DNA of 64,000 bases from contig NC_087073.1 in assembly GCF_026151205.1 (NCBI RefSeq), positions 13,907,837 to 13,971,836 on the forward strand. The letters run 5' to 3'. The notes under the pieces were generated by a model that was not told the DNA's origin, made no database searches, and worked only from the letters and a program-made list of their open reading frames with translations. A program made the translations under genes and the position numbers. This stretch comes from Bolinopsis microptera (Eukaryota > Ctenophora > Tentaculata > Lobata > Bolinopsidae). Below are positions 45,422 through 55,700 of this stretch, in pieces. Each line of letters begins with the position of its first letter. Positions within the stretch are counted from its first letter, which is position 1.

Positions 45422-45939
45422 ATGAAGATAAGGTATCTGTTGATAATTAGGTAGTACTAGTAGATGAAGATAAGGTATATGTTGATAATTAGGTAGTACT
45501 AGTAGATGAAGATAAGGTATATGTTGATAATTAGGTAGTACTAGTAGATGAAGATAAGGTATCTGTTGATAATTAGGTAGTACTAGTAGATGAAGATAAG
45601 GTATCTGTTGATAATTAGGTAGTACTAGTAGATGTAGATAAGGTATCTGTTGATAATTAGGTAGTACTAGTAGATGAAGATAAGGTATCTGTTGATAATT
45701 AGGTAGTACTAGTAGATGAAGATAAGGTATCTGTTGATAATTAGGTAGAACTAGTAGATGAAGATAAGGTATCTGTTGATAATTAGGTAGTACTAGTAGA
45801 TGAAGATAAGGTATCTGTTGATAATTAGGTAGTACTAGTAGATGAAGATAAGGTATCTGTTGATAATTAGGTAGTACTAGTAGATGAAGATAAGGTATCT
45901 GTTGATAATTAGGTAGTACTAGTAGATGAAGATAAGGTA
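45422..45939. repeat. 42-bp satellite, middle segment (about 12 copies)
   Basis: Same unit and orientation as 41411-43478. Bounded on the left by the LINE and on the right by the giant-TIR element; ends in AAGGTA (45934-45939), the left target duplication of that element. Confidence 0.97.
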
Positions 45940-46591
45940 AGTAGAAGGGAATGTATGAAGGCCAGTCATCAAGTGACCCCCAGCCACTCACAGCACGCCC
46001 CCAGGTCACGTGACAGCACGTCACGTGACAGATCACATGTCATGTAACCACGTGACAAGCTCGTCAATCAAATGTCAAGGTCACGTGACATTTGATTGAC
46101 CAATGAGGAGCCAGAACGTCATGACGAATCAATCAATAATCCCGACTAAAGGATCTAAAGTCTGATTAAACGGTTGCCAAGCAGGTTCCTGTCACTTGAT
46201 TACCGGTCACTTGATTACCGGTCACGTGTTTAGCTTAAGCATCATGTGACATGAATGGTATTTGAACCTCGAGATCACGTGACAGGAGTCACTTGATTAC
46301 CCGTCAGAACGTCATGATGAATAATTCAATAATCCTGTCTAAAGGATCTAAAGTCAGATTAAACGGTTGCCAAGCAGGTTCCTGTTATTTGATTACTGGT
46401 CAAATGATTCTTCACGATTTACCCCGGTCCAGTCACCACTCCAAATAAGCAGAGGGTGACATAACGAAATGTGGTGTAGGGTTACCATCGCTCGACCTCC
46501 TGGAAATTACAAGTCTTATCATCAATTTTCTGACATTTAAGCAATAGCTACAGTATCTGAACCACATTTTCACCCTTTAAGATATAACAAC

Positions 46592-46665
46592 TGTTAGGTA
46601 GCCTAGTGGTTAGAACATCCGTCTTCTGCGCAAAAGGTTCAGGGTTCAAAGTCGAGTCTAGGGAG
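46592..46665 (+). repeat. tRNA-derived SINE remnant (left arm)
   Basis: Has a good pol III A box (TAGCCTAGTGG) and a B box (GGTTCAAAGTC, one base off consensus) at tRNA-like spacing. The 5' and 3' ends do not form a full acceptor stem, so it is tRNA-derived, not a working tRNA gene. The mirror copy is at 52025-52098 on the minus strand. Confidence 0.6.
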
Positions 46666-46888
46666 TAGCTAAGGCTCCATACCATTCACTATTATTAACT
46701 ATTAAATTTGCTTGTTATAAATTTGATAAATTTCGAGAGACAAATAAAACTACCGTTTAATTGATAATTTGTTGTTGTCAACATTATAATCATAAATTGA
46801 AATCATCAAGAGTAAGATTGGGTACATAAATCATTGTATAACAGTTGCACGTTAATGGTGTTCTAGTACAGGTAGTTAGTTCCACCAA

Positions 46889-47578
46889 CTACTTATTCAG
46901 ATAAAGTTTGAGAATCTTATCGACAATAGTTGTGTTTTCGTTCATCAGTTTGTTTACATCAGATAGACTTGTAGTGGTGATAACTGCATCCAATAGAGAT
47001 CGTTCTTCCAAACTTAAAATATCTGTTAGGTCTTCTCCGCTGTCAATTAAACGCTGCTTCAAGACAACAAACAATTCGGTTTTCATCATGTATGAGAATA
47101 AAATGTCAAAACATTTATTTTGCTCTTTACACAATTTACTTTGTAACAGGACGTCTAGAGATTTAAGTAAACTCGATATCTTTTTACTGTTTGGTTGTTT
47201 GATTGGTACTCCTTTCCGCTTGCCTACGTGTTGCCAGTCAGTATCAGATTCTAACTCTTTAGCACTATATTCTTTGTTGGACTCATCATCGCTACTTGTT
47301 ACACCACTAAATTCATCATCACTACTACCTGGTACATCAGAGTTAGAACCACCTTGCTGAGATTCTTCAGAAACTATTGTATCAGCATCTGAACATACAG
47401 AATCAGGACCCTCCATTTTAACATCAGTCACATCTGAGTTAGCTTTTGACAGCGGCAGTAGAATTGCAGAACTTTCATCTGACTCTCGGTTCTCTCGATG
47501 ATACCTACTAATGTGTGAGGACAGACTATATTTATTGGCAAAAGACTTGTCACAGAATGAGCAGGTTACAGAATTCAT
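46889..47578 (-). CDS. C2H2 zinc-finger protein of the giant-TIR element (left copy)
   Basis: 229 residues, one exon. One C2H2 finger at the N terminus (C6, C9, H22, H27; VTCSFCDKSFANKYSLSSHI). A Ser/Asp/Glu-rich acidic stretch follows (about 35-115), then a basic patch (HVGKRKGVPIKQPNSKK) and a helical C terminus (LLKSLDVLLQSKLCKEQ to VDKILKLYLNK). It does not resemble a known transposase; a DNA-binding accessory protein is a guess from the finger. It is read inward-to-outward, from the inner arm toward the left terminus. It differs from the right copy by one residue that I could see (SSDDE here, SNDDE there). Confidence 0.7.
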   Translation of the reverse strand: MNSVTCSFCDKSFANKYSLSSHISRYHRENRESDESSAILLPLSKANSDVTDVKMEGPDSVCSDADTIVSEESQQGGSNSDVPGSSDDEFSGVTSSDDESNKEYSAKELESDTDWQHVGKRKGVPIKQPNSKKISSLLKSLDVLLQSKLCKEQNKCFDILFSYMMKTELFVVLKQRLIDSGEDLTDILSLEERSLLDAVITTTSLSDVNKLMNENTTIVDKILKLYLNK

Positions 47579-47604
47579 AACTGCAGTACAAACGTTTTAT
47601 AATG

Positions 47605-47930
47605 CTATGCAACAACCATTATATAGCAATAATCGCATAAAATCGCAAATAATCGCAAAATAATCGCATATAATCGCATATAATAGCATATAATAGCATA
47701 TAATGGCATAAAATTGCAAATAATCGCATATAATTGCAAAATAATTCCATAAAATAGCATATAATAGCATATAATAGCATATAATCGCATATAATAGCAT
47801 ATAATAGCATATAATCACATTTAATCACATATATAATCACGTATATTCTCTCTTAAAATCACATTTTATTATTTATACTCGCAAATAATTGCATATAATT
47901 GCAAATAATCGCATATAGTAGCAGGGTGAA
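47605..47930. repeat. ATAATAGCAT / ATAATCGCAT array (left arm)
   Basis: About 30 units of a 10-bp word ATATAATAGC / ATATAATCGC with variants, immediately upstream of the left zinc-finger ORF. A second cluster is at 48480-48605; mirror copies are at 50760-51085 and 50090-50220. Related words also fill 49240-49600 in the spacer. Confidence 0.85.
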
Positions 47931-48819
47931 TATGATCCAACTTACGCATTCAACCTATTAAAGATCTTTTCAAAGATTTATTTTCATGCTGATTGCCAAG
48001 CATCATCCTGGAGATGGAACTGTAACTCTTGAGTCTACCAAAGACTGCACCCAACATGTAGGAATACTTCCTAGTGGGGACTTTAAAGGACCACACCAGA
48101 CAGGACAAGGAGATCATGGTAAATTCTACGTCAACTAGTCAGACGGAGATCATCTTCGAGATCTATCACTTTCTGGATTATCATTCATAACCAGTAGTCG
48201 GCGCACCATTGATTTCTGCTTTCAAATGATAACTGCTAATACTCTTGTCGATTTTATTGCACAGAAACCAGCATTTGACCGGGACCGGGACCGGGAATAG
48301 CTCAAAATTGTCAATCCCGGTACCAGGATTCCCGGTACCGGGAATCCCGGTCGATTACTGGTGCAATTCAACTGGCCAGGTTTAGGTATCAGGTGATTTT
48401 TCCTGCAATTTGGTAGTTGTGAAACATCACCTTGGATTTCTGTTGTCACAAAACGTACCTTTTTAGACCTTTTCTCAAAGCATATAATAGCATATAATAG
48501 CATATAATCACATATAATAGCATATAATAGCATATAATCACATATAATAGCATATAATAGCATATAATAGCATATAATCGCATATAATCGCATGTAATAG
48601 CATTCGATCACATATATAATCAATTGGGTGAGCGAAAATTGTCCCTCGACAATTGACCCCCCGATAATTGACCCCCCGACAATGTAACTCAATACAACAT
48701 CACCTCATACCATACTCCTCACGGTTCTCTTGATCTAGGAAGAATGCACCTTTGTTGTGGTGTGCCACACTCCACATGAATAGATTCTTGGAAAATTCAG
48801 ATGCTCTCCCCATAGCTAG

Positions 48820-48896
48820 TGGCACAGACGGGAATCGAACCCGGGACCCTGTGAATGCGAGACATTTCACAAGCAGGCAGACTAACGAACTGTGCC
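48820..48896 (-). tRNA. tRNA-like sequence or pseudogene in the element spacer
   Basis: Minus strand: the acceptor strands GGCACAG and CTGTGCC pair perfectly over 7 bp, followed by A. The T arm CCGGG-TTCGATT-CCCGT has four of five pairs, and the B box GGTTCGATTCC is perfect. The middle region is about four bases longer than normal, the A box is poor, and the anticodon arm folds only with a bulge, so I cannot name an anticodon. Probably a tRNA pseudogene or SINE head. Confidence 0.45.
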
Positions 48897-49068
48897 ACAT
48901 AGCCATTTATAACTATAATGTATTATTTTAAACTGACAAGCTCGTAAATGAAATGTCAAGGTTACGTGACAAGTTAATTGACCAATAAGAAGCAAGTACG
49001 TTATAATAGCATCCGTCACGTGATATTCGTAACGATCTTGTTAAACATGTTCATATTTTCATTTTAAC

Positions 49069-49172
49069 AGCGGTCCATCTGGAGCCTCAGGTTAGTGAGT
49101 TAACGGCAACTTTCCTATGCAGGACAATGCGGGTTCAAATCCCGCCTAGCCTACTTCTCCAGATGGATCGCT
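49069..49172 (+). other. 16-bp-stem hairpin enclosing a tRNA-like T arm
   Basis: AGCGGTCCATCTGGAG (49069-49084) pairs with CTCCAGATGGATCGCT (49157-49172) with a single G-T wobble. Inside, AGGTTAG and CTAGCCT can form a 7-bp acceptor-like stem, followed by a T arm GCGGG-TTCAAAT-CCCGC with five pairs. The interior is shorter than a normal tRNA (33 bases where about 41 are expected). It lies in the unique centre of the giant-TIR element. Confidence 0.5.
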
Positions 49173-49605
49173 CTTTTAAAACATTTAATTTTATCTATTT
49201 AAACGTAACGACCATTGGTATTCATTTAAATGCGATTATAAAATATTATATGCTATTATATGCAATTATATGAATATATGTTGGAGATGGAACTATAACT
49301 CTTGAGTCTACCGAATGCGATTATATATGCTATTATATGCTATTATAAGCTATCATATGCGATTATATGATATTATATAATGCTATTATATGCGATTATA
49401 TGATATTATATGCTATTATATGCAATTATATGCTGGCGATTGAACTGTAATTCTTGAGTCTACCGAATGCGATTGTATGTTATTATTATATGCTATTATA
49501 TGCAATTATATGCTATTATATACTATTATATGCTATTATATGCTATTATATGCTATTATATGATATTATATGATATTATATGCTATTATTTGCGATTATT
49601 TTCAG

Positions 49606-49832
49606 TATTCATTCAGTATTCATTCAGTATTCATTCAGTATTCATTCGGTATTCATTCAGTATTCATTCAGTATTCATTCAGTATTCATTCAGTATTCAT
49701 TCAGTATTCATTCAGTATTCATTCAGTATTCATTCAGTATTCATTCAGTATTCATTCAGTATCCATTCAGTATTCATTTAGTATTCATTCAGTATTCATT
49801 CAGTATTCGGCATTTATTCAGTATTTAGCGGA
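49606..49832 (+). repeat. 11-bp repeat TATTCATTCAG (about 20 copies)
   Basis: Nearly pure tandem array in the spacer of the giant-TIR element, followed at 49840-49950 by two copies of a ~62-bp block (GTGGAGTGTGGCACA / GTGGAGTGCGGCACA), the second of which is the inner end of the right arm. Confidence 0.92.
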
Positions 49833-51111
49833 TTTGTTCATGTGGAGTGTGGCACATCACAACAAAAGTACCTCCTTCCTAGATCAAGAGTATCGTGAGA
49901 TTTGTCCATGTGGAGTGCGGCACACCACAACAAAGGTGCATTCTTCCTAGATCAAGAGAACCGTGAGGAGTATGGTATGAGGTGATGTTGTATTGAGTTA
50001 CATTGTCGGGGGGGTCAATTGTCGAGGGGTCAATTATCGGGGGGTCAATTGTCGGGGGACAATTTTCGCCCACCCAATGGATTATATATGTGATCGAATG
50101 ATATTACATGCGATTATATGCGATTATATGCTATTATATGCTATTATATGCTATTATATGCTATTATATGCTATTATATGCTATTATATGTGATTATATG
50201 CTATTATATGCTATTATATGCTTTGAGAAAAGGTCTAAAAAGGTACGTTTTGTGACAACAGAAATCCAAGGTGATGTTTCACAACTACCAAATTGCAGGA
50301 AAAATCACCTGATACCTAAACCTGGCCAGATAATTGCACCAGTAATCGACCGGGATTCCCGGTACCGGGAATCCCGGTACCGGGATTGACAATTTTGAGC
50401 TATTCCCGGTCCCGGTCCCGGTCAAATGCTGGTTTCTGTGCAATAAAATCGACAAGAGTATTAGCAGTTATCATTTGAAAGCAGAAATCAATGGTGCGCC
50501 GACTACTGGTTATGAATGATAATCCAGAAAGTGATAGATCTCGAAGATGATATCCGTCTGACTAGTTGACGTAGAATTTACCATGATCTCCTTGTCCTGT
50601 CTGGTGTGGTCCTTTAAAGTCCCCACTAGGAAGTATTCCTACATGTTGGGTGCAGTCTTTGGTAGACTCAAGAGTTACAGTTCCATCTCCAGGATGATGC
50701 TTGGCAATCAGCATGAAAATAAATCTTTGAAAAGATCTTTAATAGGTTGAATGCGTAAGTTGGATCATATTCACCCTGCTACTATATGCGATTATTTGCA
50801 ATTATATGCAATTATTTGCGAGTATAAATAATAAAATGTGATTTTAAGAGAGAATATACGTGATTATATATGTGATTAAATGTGATTATATGCTATTATA
50901 TGCTATTATATGCGATTATATGCTATTATATGCTATTATATGCTATTTTGTGGAATTATTTTGCAATTATATGCGATTATTTGCAATTTTATGCCATTAT
51001 ATGCTATTATATGCGATTATATGCGATTATTTTGCGATTATTTGCGATTTTGTGCGATTATTGCTATATAATGGTTGTTGCATAGCATTATAAAACGTTT
51101 GTACTGCAGTT

Positions 51112-51801
51112 ATGAATTCTGTAACCTGCTCATTCTGTGACAAGTCTTTTGCCAATAAATATAGTCTGTCCTCACACATTAGTAGGTATCATCGAGAGAA
51201 CCGAGAGTCAGATGAAAGTTCTGCAATTCTACTGCCGCTGTCAAAAGCTAACTCAGATGTGACTGATGTTAAAATGGAGGGTCCTGATTCTGTATGTTCA
51301 GATGCTGATACAATAGTTTCTGAAGAATCTCAGCAAGGTGGTTCTAACTCTGATGTACCAGGTAGTAATGATGATGAATTTAGTGGTGTAACAAGTAGCG
51401 ATGATGAGTCCAACAAAGAATATAGTGCTAAAGAGTTAGAATCTGATACTGACTGGCAACACGTAGGCAAGCGGAAAGGAGTACCAATCAAACAACCAAA
51501 CAGTAAAAAGATATCGAGTTTACTTAAATCTCTAGACGTCCTGTTACAAAGTAAATTGTGTAAAGAGCAAAATAAATGTTTTGACATTTTATTCTCATAC
51601 ATGATGAAAACCGAATTGTTTGTTGTCTTGAAGCAGCGTTTAATTGACAGCGGAGAAGACCTAACAGATATTTTAAGTTTGGAAGAACGATCTCTATTGG
51701 ATGCAGTTATCACCACTACAAGTCTATCTGATGTAAACAAACTGATGAACGAAAACACAACTATTGTCGATAAGATTCTCAAACTTTATCTGAATAAGTA
51801 G
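51112..51801 (+). CDS. C2H2 zinc-finger protein of the giant-TIR element (right copy)
   Basis: Mirror copy of the gene at 46889-47578 (coordinates sum to 98690 throughout), same length and start. The single seen amino-acid change is Asn for Ser in the acidic region. An intact ORF in both arms argues either for selection on the protein or for recent formation or gene conversion of the arms. The region upstream of the ATG in both copies is the ATTATATGCT-type array plus a TATATAATGG stretch that could act as a TATA-like promoter. Confidence 0.7.
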   Translation: MNSVTCSFCDKSFANKYSLSSHISRYHRENRESDESSAILLPLSKANSDVTDVKMEGPDSVCSDADTIVSEESQQGGSNSDVPGSNDDEFSGVTSSDDESNKEYSAKELESDTDWQHVGKRKGVPIKQPNSKKISSLLKSLDVLLQSKLCKEQNKCFDILFSYMMKTELFVVLKQRLIDSGEDLTDILSLEERSLLDAVITTTSLSDVNKLMNENTTIVDKILKLYLNK

Positions 51802-52024
51802 TTGGTGGAACTAACTACCTGTACTAGAACACCATTAACGTGCAACTGTTATACAATGATTTATGTACCCAATCTTACTCTTGATGATTTCAATTTATGA
51901 TTATAATGTTGACAACAACAAATTATCAATTAAACGGTAGTTTTATTTGTCTCTCGAAATTTATCAAATTTATAACAAGCAAATTTAATAGTTAATAATA
52001 GTGAATGGTATGGAGCCTTAGCTA

Positions 52025-52098
52025 CTCCCTAGACTCGACTTTGAACCCTGAACCTTTTGCGCAGAAGACGGATGTTCTAACCACTAGGCTACCTAACA
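52025..52098 (-). repeat. tRNA-derived SINE remnant (right arm)
   Basis: Mirror of 46592-46665 within the right terminal inverted repeat; same A and B boxes. Confidence 0.6.
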
Positions 52099-52735
52099 GT
52101 TGTTATATCTTAAAGGGTGAAAATGTGGTTCAGATACTGTAGCTATTGCTTAAATGTCAGAAAATTGATGATAAGACTTGTAATTTCCAGGAGGTCGAGC
52201 GATGGTAACCCTACACCACATTTCGTTATGTCACCCTCTGCTTATTTGGAGTGGTGACTGGACCGGGGTAAATCGTGAAGAATCATTTGACCAGTAATCA
52301 AATAACAGGAACCTGCTTGGCAACCGTTTAATCTGACTTTAGATCCTTTAGACAGGATTATTGAATTATTCATCATGACGTTCTGACGGGTAATCAAGTG
52401 ACTCCTGTCACGTGATCTCGAGGTTCAAATACCATTCATGTCACATGATGCTTAAGCTAAACACGTGACCGGTAATCAAGTGACAGGAACCTGCTTGGCA
52501 ACCGTTTAATCAGACTTTAGATCCTTTAGTCGGGATTATTGATTGATTCGTCATGACGTTCTGGCTCCTCATTGGTCAATCAAATGTCACGTGACCTTGA
52601 CATTTGATTGACGAGCTTGTCACGTGGTTACATGACATGTGATCTGTCACGTGACGTGCTGTCACGTGACCTGGGGGCGTGCTGTGAGTGGCTGGGGGTC
52701 ACTTGATGACTGGCCTTCATACATTCCCTTCTACT

Positions 52736-55700
52736 AAGGTATCTGTTGATAATTAGGTAGAACTAGTAGATGAAGATAAGGTATCTGTTGATAATTAGGT
52801 AGTACTAGTAGATGAAGATAAGGTATCTGTTGATAATTAGGTAGTACTAGTAGATGAAGATAAGGTATCTGTTGATAATTAGGTAGTACTAGTAGATGAA
52901 GATAAGGTATCTGTTGATAATTAGGTAGTACTAGTAGATGAAGATAAGGTATCTGTTGATAATTAGGTAGTACTAGTAGATGAAGATAAGGTATCTGTTG
53001 ATAATTAGGTAGTACTAGTAGATGAAGATAAGGTATATGTTGATAATTAGGTAGTACTAGTAGATGAAGATAAGGTATATGTTGATAATTAGGTAGTACT
53101 AGTAGATGAAGATAAGGTATATGTTGATAATTAGGTAGTACTAGTAGATGAAGATAAGGTATCTGTTGATAATTAGGTAGTACTAGTAGATGAAGATAAG
53201 GTATCTGTTGATAATTAGGTAGTACTAGTAGATGAAGATAAGGTATCTGTTGATAATTAGGTAGTACTAGTAGACGAAGATAAGGTATCTGTTGATAATT
53301 AGGTAGTACTAGTAGACGAAGATAAGGTATCTGTTGATAATTAGGTAGTACTAGTAGAGGAAGATAAGGTATCTGTTGATAATTAGGTAGTACTAGTAGA
53401 TGAAGATAAGGTATCTGTTGATAATTAGGTAGTACTAGTAGATGAAGATAAGGTATCTGTTGATAATTAGGTAGTACTAGTAGATGAAGATAAGGTATCT
53501 GTTGATAATTAGGTAGTACTAGTAGATGAAGATAAGGTATCTGTTGATAATTAGGTAGTACTAGTAGATGAAGATAAGGTATCTGTTGATAATTAGGTAG
53601 AACTAGTAGACGAAGATAAGGTATCTGTTGATAATTAGGTAGTACTAGTAGACGAAGATAAGGTATCTGTTGATAATTAGGTAGTACTAGTAGACGAAGA
53701 TAAGGTATCTGTTGATAATTAGGTAGTACTAGTAGACGAAGATAAGGTATATGTTGATAATTAGGTAGTACTAGTAGACGAAGATAAGGTATCTGTTGAT
53801 AATTAGGTAGTACTAGTAGACGAAGATAAGGTATCTGTTGATAATTAGGTAGTACTAGTAGACGAAGATAAGGTATCTGTTGATAATTAGGTAGTACTAG
53901 TAGATGAAGATAAGGTATCTGTTGATAATTAGGTAGTACTAGTAGATGAAGATAAGGTATATGTTGATAATTAGGTAGAACTAGTAGACGAAGATAAGGT
54001 ATCTGTTGATAATTAGGTAGTACTAGTAGACGAAGATAAGGTATCTGTTGATAATTAGGTAGTACTAGTAGACGAAGATAAGGTATCTGTTGATAATTAG
54101 GTAGTACTAGTAGACGAAGATAAGGTATATGTTGATAATTAGGTAGTACTAGTAGACGAAGATAAGGTATCTGTTGATAATTAGGTAGTACTAGTAGACG
54201 AAGATAAGGTATCTGTTGATAATTAGGTAGTACTAGTAGACGAAGATAAGGTATCTGTTGATAATTAGGTAGTACTAGTAGACGAAGATAAGGTATCTGT
54301 TGATAATTAGGTAGTACTAGTAGAGGAAGATAAGGTATCTGTTGATAATTAGGTAGAACTAGTAGACGAAGATAAGGTATCTGTTGATAATTAGGTAGTA
54401 CTAGTAGACGAAGATAAGGTATCTGTTGATAATTAGGTAGTACTAGTAGAGGAAGATAAGGTATCTGTTGATAATTAGGTAGAACTAGTAGACGAAGATA
54501 AGGTATCTGTTGATAATTAGGTAGTACTAGTAGACGAAGATAAGGTATCTGTTGATAATTAGGTAGTACTAGTAGAGGAAGATAAGGTATCTGTTGATAA
54601 TTAGGTAGTACTAGTAGATGAAGATAAGGTATCTGTTGATAATTAGGTAGTACTAGTAGATGAAGATAAGGTATCTGTTGATAATTAGGTAGTACTAGTA
54701 GATGAAGATAAGGTATCTGTTGATAATTAGGTAGTACTAGTAGATGAAGATAAGGTATCTGTTGATAATTAGGTAGTACTAGTAGATGAAGATAAGGTAT
54801 CTGTTGATAATTAGGTAGAACTAGTAGACGAAGATAAGGTATCTGTTGATAATTAGGTAGTACTAGTAGACGAAGATAAGGTATCTGTTGATAATTAGGT
54901 AGTACTAGTAGACGAAGATAAGGTATCTGTTGATAATTAGGTAGTACTAGTAGACGAAGATAAGGTATATGTTGATAATTAGGTAGTACTAGTAGACGAA
55001 GATAAGGTATCTGTTGATAATTAGGTAGTACTAGTAGACGAAGATAAGGTATCTGTTGATAATTAGGTAGTACTAGTAGACGAAGATAAGGTATCTGTTG
55101 ATAATTAGGTAGTACTAGTAGATGAAGATAAGGTATCTGTTGATAATTAGGTAGTACTAGTAGATGAAGATAAGGTATATGTTGATAATTAGGTAGAACT
55201 AGTAGACGAAGATAAGGTATCTGTTGATAATTAGGTAGTACTAGTAGACGAAGATAAGGTATCTGTTGATAATTAGGTAGTACTAGTAGACGAAGATAAG
55301 GTATCTGTTGATAATTAGGTAGTACTAGTAGACGAAGATAAGGTATATGTTGATAATTAGGTAGTACTAGTAGACGAAGATAAGGTATCTGTTGATAATT
55401 AGGTAGTACTAGTAGACGAAGATAAGGTATCTGTTGATAATTAGGTAGTACTAGTAGACGAAGATAAGGTATCTGTTGATAATTAGGTAGTACTAGTAGA
55501 CGAAGATAAGGTATCTGTTGATAATTAGGTAGTACTAGTAGAGGAAGATAAGGTATCTGTTGATAATTAGGTAGAACTAGTAGACGAAGATAAGGTATCT
55601 GTTGATAATTAGGTAGTACTAGTAGACGAAGATAAGGTATCTGTTGATAATTAGGTAGTACTAGTAGACGAAGATAAGGTATCTGTTGATAATTAGGTAG

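Follow-up and report, generated by a model that had tools for sequence, protein, structure and literature searches.

Polinton/Maverick elements are regarded as disguised viruses. Vertebrate Mavericks are described as having ends of the form (AGT)2//(ACT)2, among others, and 6-bp duplications (PMC8097293). Here we describe an element of 6,796 bp at positions 45940-52735 of a 64,000-nucleotide stretch of the genome of the ctenophore Bolinopsis microptera (contig NC_087073.1; hereafter the window, numbered from its first base). We consider it likely, judging from sequence, that this element is a non-autonomous satellite, or parasite, of Polinton/Maverick elements, a reading that takes in proposed mobilization in trans, giant arms proposed to form by fold-back, and a putative role for its zinc-finger gene. 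The element has in common with Polintons AGT-type ends, 6-bp duplications, and inverted terminal repeats, and the outer part of its arms is shared with Polintons of the same genome; it differs in having no match to the integrase, PolB, ATPase, or capsid candidate of Polintons and in carrying its own zinc-finger gene in both arms. By its ends it is a Polinton derivative and thus of an already known kind. What is unusual is that it has its own gene, that this gene is reused behind different ends, and that its build is nearly palindromic. No Polinton satellite with its own gene was among the matches listed in a search of open-licence literature, consisting mostly of titles and the beginnings of abstracts, with Repbase reports outside its range.

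Several other systems invite comparison. Tlr of Tetrahymena was once proposed to be a non-autonomous Polinton derivative, and it is argued to have split from Polintons long ago and to have its own capsid gene (PMC4028283); the window element differs in lacking a capsid-candidate match and in having ends also found on a Polinton in the genome where it resides. The virophages and transpovirons of giant viruses are subviral DNA dependent on another DNA element or virus, as is proposed for the window element, but here there is no capsid-candidate match, the proposed helper is an integrated animal Polinton, and the system is known from sequence alone. Galileo and other Foldback-type elements also have very long, internally repetitive inverted repeats, but Galileo is classed with the P element by its transposase, whereas the window element has Polinton-type ends and duplications (PMC3573991). 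Ginger2 is described as having TGTNR ends, 6-bp targets, and a zinc finger within its DDE transposase (PMC2836005). The 6-bp target and a zinc finger are thus common to both, but the window element ends in AGTAG and contains no transposase frame among its open reading frames (ORFs) or Pfam matches.

The limits of the element are exact to the base, with the termini AGTAGAAGGG on the left (at 45940) and CCCTTCTACT on the right (at 52735), and the giant inverted repeats proposed in the initial annotation are confirmed: the left arm (45940-48778, forward strand) and right arm (49907-52735, reverse strand), delimited by alignment to each other, are 2.84 and 2.83 kb long, account for 84% of the element, and are 98.07% identical over 2,855 columns (13 mismatches, 42 gap columns). 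The insertion target is a homogeneous 42-bp satellite array present on both sides. One copy of the duplicated hexamer AAGGTA lies within this array (45934-45939) and the other flanks the right end (52736-52741), and the phase of the satellite is kept across the insert (copy spacing 6,844 = 42 + 6,796 + 6), as expected from the satellite insertion that had been read from this duplication. Each arm holds one copy of a 229-aa C2H2 zinc-finger gene (46889-47578, reverse strand; 51112-51801, forward strand) that reads towards the terminus of its own side. All ORFs of at least 60 aa are these two copies, their antisense frames, tandem-repeat frames, and one 68-aa frame.

To look for other copies, the genome was searched with the terminal 100 bases; 40 of 48 candidates were scored, so that the copy count is a lower bound. 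The scored ends form at least 19 inverted pairs, in addition to one unpaired partial end (C7) and a second right end (C13), both of which were excluded from the counts. The AGTAG terminus is present in all 19 pairs (the window element itself begins AGTAGA, in which the second AGT of the AGT-type motif is inexact), and an exact 6-bp duplication was recounted by script in 18 of the 19, the last (L019) having a single mismatch. Seventeen pairs (group A) are giant-arm elements of 5.6-9.6 kb that have the zinc-finger gene and no Polinton gene match. Of their 34 arms, 30 retain the complete 229-aa open frame; L009, L011, L014, and the C13 copy each have a single arm in which it is not intact. Three further A-like places (C3, C4, and C13) were found by protein search. 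The group A satellite looks recently mobile.

The remaining 2 of 19 pairs are Polintons, one on C1 (18.4 kb; L028, L029) and one on C7 (12.0 kb; L024, L025), and they provide the partner with shared termini and 6-bp duplications for which a search had been suggested. Pfam matches among the pieces of the C1 Polinton, none of which reaches its curated cut-off, are to an rve integrase core (E 3.5e-5), DNA_pol_B_2 (E 3.2e-4), and an ATPase of the AAA type (E 1.3e-3); 6 of the 10 pieces scanned matched nothing. The outer part of the window arms (45940-46396, forward strand, and its mirror, 52279-52735, reverse strand) is common to the terminal repeats of these Polintons, with 88.2% identity to the C1 repeats (L028, L029) over arm positions 1-457 and 85.1% to the C7 repeats (L024, L025) over positions 1-367. 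In the other direction, the A-type Polintons have no match to the 229-aa protein. One integrase match lies in each of the C1 and C7 Polintons, and none of the 32 in the genome lies in the 17 giant-arm elements; within the window element there are likewise none of the 47 PolB, 30 packaging ATPase, or 64 capsid-candidate matches, consistent with the initial annotation, which had found no Polinton gene. The capsid candidate, a 435-aa protein beside the integrase and ATPase in an A-type Polinton, is so labeled from its size and neighbors only, and a search of PDB sequences gave no match to it; integrase, ATPase, and capsid candidate recur together in other places, among them C13:2753615-2757803, C9:6181343-6185531, and C11:6947705-6952430. 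Because the element has Polinton ends and no match to the Polinton genes searched, we interpret it as a non-autonomous satellite. The initial annotation had left open a Polinton parasite or a new class; the former stands as far as the sequence goes, and because Polintons with the same ends exist, there is no need to invoke a new class that has a transposase of its own.

The arms themselves bear on how the element may be copied. Over their first 1,650 bases, the two arms within one group A element are a median of 0.06% apart, as compared to 4.1% for arms of different elements (544 comparisons), or 3.1% once the two rearranged elements, L014 and L027, are set aside (420 comparisons, the lowest at 0.73%). 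In 14 of 17 elements the two arms are mutual nearest neighbors, and L015 is a palindrome from end to end (98%). A further observation comes from the C7 Polinton, which tracks the C1 Polinton to L025:1050, inside PolB; the C1 Polinton continues through PolB at this point, whereas the C7 Polinton switches to its left-end sequence repeated in inverted orientation (L025:1051-2255, 99.75% over 1,205 bp), and the junction is sharp, with no clear microhomology. A copy of the left end has thus taken the place of its right end, and fold-back replication therefore probably makes the arms. The arm genes read outward in group A and in two groups of relatives treated below (B and C) and inward in a third (D). 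Elsewhere, at C13:13624194-13632401, C9:6594451-6608817, and C7:6690411-6705670, elements with related ends have a PolB gene near each end, inverted, so that their arms hold PolB in place of the zinc finger. The differing orientation of arm genes and these inverted PolB pairs inside paired ends suggest that arms have formed anew repeatedly. Separately, L016 (C4:2664209-2670744) has arms from different A lineages, 5.0% apart, as if two elements had recombined.

Ordinary chromosomal gene conversion between inverted repeats, rather than fold-back, is an alternative that concerns the arms alone. Long inverted repeats elsewhere do convert, and conversion would also give close arms within elements and distant arms between them. 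However, conversion between pre-existing arms would not create the sharp inverted-end junction of the C7 Polinton, and the contrast between outward genes (A, B, and C) and inward genes (D) suggests repeated new formation. We hold conversion to be a somewhat doubtful source of the arms, and the simplest single mechanism is that a strand displaced in end-primed replication folds back.

In group A, the 229-aa gene is the sole non-repetitive long gene, and its two copies in the window element differ at 1 residue. The initial annotation had described one C2H2 finger and no transposase resemblance, and protein searches (Pfam, PHROGs, and PDB sequences) agree: one finger was found at residues 5-27 (PF00096, E 1.1e-4; 22.9 bits, below the curated cut-off of 25.2), six other matching Pfam families are weaker finger models, and no domain was recognized in these three collections beyond the finger. 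PDB sequences returned generic C2H2 fingers only and PHROGs nothing of weight. IMG/VR, scanned with an alignment of 7 proteins, gave 192 pattern matches and no confirmed relative, and a phage collection also gave none. Between groups of the gene, the ratio of non-synonymous to synonymous rates (dN/dS, Nei-Gojobori) is 0.31-0.52. Within group A, 51 non-synonymous and 16 synonymous changes were counted, with 17.1 synonymous changes expected without selection (both measures cover 29 of 30 full-length A copies, the right copy of L026 being left out). Gene pairs across the A1-A2 split show 20-29 non-synonymous versus 2-7 synonymous changes (dN/dS 0.8-3.5), a pattern suggestive of a burst of protein change that is not significant when pooled; positive selection inside group A is not claimed, as the pooled count fits neutrality. 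Between-group constraint together with neutrality within group A fits a gene that is kept by long-run selection and is free to decay after insertion.

The genome search with this protein, which had also been suggested, returned 128 matches in several element types with different ends. Relatives at ∼60-68% identity form groups B (L040), C (L041), D (L042), and E (L043). Copies of B and C have one identical 41-bp end, unlike that of A, and a 6-bp duplication is present in the one C element examined (CTGACC) and in the one D element (CATCTC). When the arm of A is compared to each of B to E, only the gene aligns, except for one 65-bp piece in E; the gene recurs behind at least three end types (A, B/C, and D). 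Four group D elements of 9.0-9.5 kb, each with its genes paired, are recognized by their ends; in a fifth, on C1, the gene is split by an insertion. This fifth element is L047 (C1:22023559 onward), some frames of which resemble reverse transcriptase by eye. The outer 518 bp of D are 92% identical to the right end of a second Polinton (C11), which has integrase, ATPase, and capsid-candidate pieces. Group D also has a 191-aa gene that is 38.5% identical to a Polinton end gene and for which the PDB search found no relative of weight. Ends of the D type also surround PolB pieces, ∼7.1 kb apart, at C5:19430338-19437448 and C5:19509505-19516626.

A more distant group, G (L044), is ∼30% identical to the 229-aa protein. 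All five G homologs adjoin a PolB match and lie between paired Polinton-type ends 8.2-9.4 kb apart, one at C9:2276549-2285164 (L044, L048) and the remaining four distributed over C1, C3 (two), and C7; the PolB open frame is 1253 aa in three of them and 1156 and 758 aa in the other two. No integrase, ATPase, or capsid-candidate match falls in any of the five. In the L044/L048 element the terminal repeat is 162 bp long and the duplicated hexamer is GTAGAC; the zinc-finger gene is oriented towards the right terminus, just as it is in A. In L044, a stretch with GT..AG borders, recognized by eye, separates the finger from the C-terminal part, and the gene is therefore probably spliced there. From these sequence features, A-type arms likely descend from the end of such a compact element carrying PolB and the zinc-finger gene.

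DNA transposons commonly give rise to deletion derivatives, and the window element might be a plain one: a Polinton would have lost its genes and captured between its ends a zinc-finger gene, native to the host or to another element, that remains a passenger without a role. The substitutions within group A (51 to 16), which look neutral, are what such a passenger would show. The same gene, however, recurs behind at least three end types while the rest of the A arm fails to align, is constrained between groups (dN/dS 0.31-0.52), has a distant homolog that neighbors PolB in 5 of 5 group G elements, and keeps its full frame in 30 of 34 arms of 17 elements. We thus judge a trapped passenger unlikely. 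It is very improbable that the element is instead a separate autonomous class whose zinc-finger protein is itself the recombinase: this protein is encoded by the only non-repetitive long gene in A and its C-terminal part has no known function, but the ends and duplications match Polintons of the same genome, and nothing beyond the finger was recognized in Pfam, PHROGs, or PDB sequences. Large palindromes are prone to misassembly, but an assembly artefact or a segmental inversion has next to no probability given 17 dispersed giant-arm elements, each with its own duplication and arm variants, and exact duplications in 18 of 19 pairs, two Polintons included.

How a satellite of Polintons might be propagated can be put as follows. 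Polinton proteins would act on the satellite in trans: PolB would replicate it starting at either end, and the integrase would place the resulting linear copy in the chromosome with a 6-bp stagger. A displaced strand may fold back and copy one end onto the other, giving rise to giant arms and to a symmetric molecule in which both ends are good and only one type of gene is present; each round of fold-back would make the arms identical again. The zinc-finger protein may bind the element's ends or promoters and aid replication or expression of the satellite. This is the least certain step, and it is proposed because the gene is conserved where nearly nothing else is and because its distant homolog lies beside PolB. 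Symmetric defective adenovirus genomes, which arise in protein-primed linear replication, have one end duplicated in inverted form and depend on a helper. The inverted duplicated end is the same here, and protein-primed linear replication and helper dependence are proposed here as well; the elements described here differ in that they are integrated at dispersed chromosomal sites and in that their gene has no match in the A-type Polintons.

Several observations weigh against the view that the element is a Polinton satellite propagated in this way. The outer repeat common to satellite and Polintons is 85-88% identical rather than identical, and neither same-end Polinton is an evident working helper, PolB being broken into pieces in the C1 Polinton and missing in part from the C7 copy. 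For the ends of B and C no helper was found, none of 18 exact 14-mer matches lying near an integrase, ATPase, or capsid-candidate match. Three of 17 elements (L014, L016, and L027) depart from the clean-arm pattern, and gene conversion is another process by which the two arms could stay alike. There is no detectable constraint on the gene within group A, and an AlphaFold model of the 229-aa protein made without relatives (a single-sequence fold with a mean predicted local distance difference test score of 46) is uninformative on its function. Finally, a few zinc-finger matches occur 4-13 kb from Polinton gene matches (C6:14257530, with a capsid candidate 3.6 kb off, and C13:2740968, with an integrase ∼12 kb off), which means that some Polintons may carry the gene as well. 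Another zinc-finger match, at C11:19577463-19579318, has PolB ∼5 kb off.

The central loop between the arms (48779-49906, limits from the arm alignment) contains a tRNA-like sequence (49089-49153, forward strand; Rfam RF00005, 37.2 bits, above the gathering score), and ARAGORN found no tRNA. Degenerate tRNA-like stretches lie at 46590-46665 and 48817-48896 of the window, at L041:1615-1680, and at L044:4000-4063; they were recognized by eye, except that 48817-48896 has a weak tmRNA match below the Rfam gathering score. Several groups have such stretches in their arms or close to their ends, and these are perhaps remnants of short interspersed elements.

More tentatively, these elements could represent a distinct subviral satellite lineage with its own zinc-finger gene, parasitic on several Polinton families, switching helpers by changing its ends and having its near-palindromes remade by fold-back in each round, and perhaps derived from a compact element with Polinton-type ends, PolB, and the zinc-finger gene that is still in the genome; we regard this fuller history as possible rather than probable. 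At the present lower-bound count, giant-arm elements outnumber the Polintons with the same ends by 17 to 2, and a satellite that outnumbers its helper type offers a way to study the origin of parasites of integrated viruses. Fold-back replication may in turn be recorded in the arms and in the end of the C7 Polinton, a record that would make the mode of Polinton replication testable.

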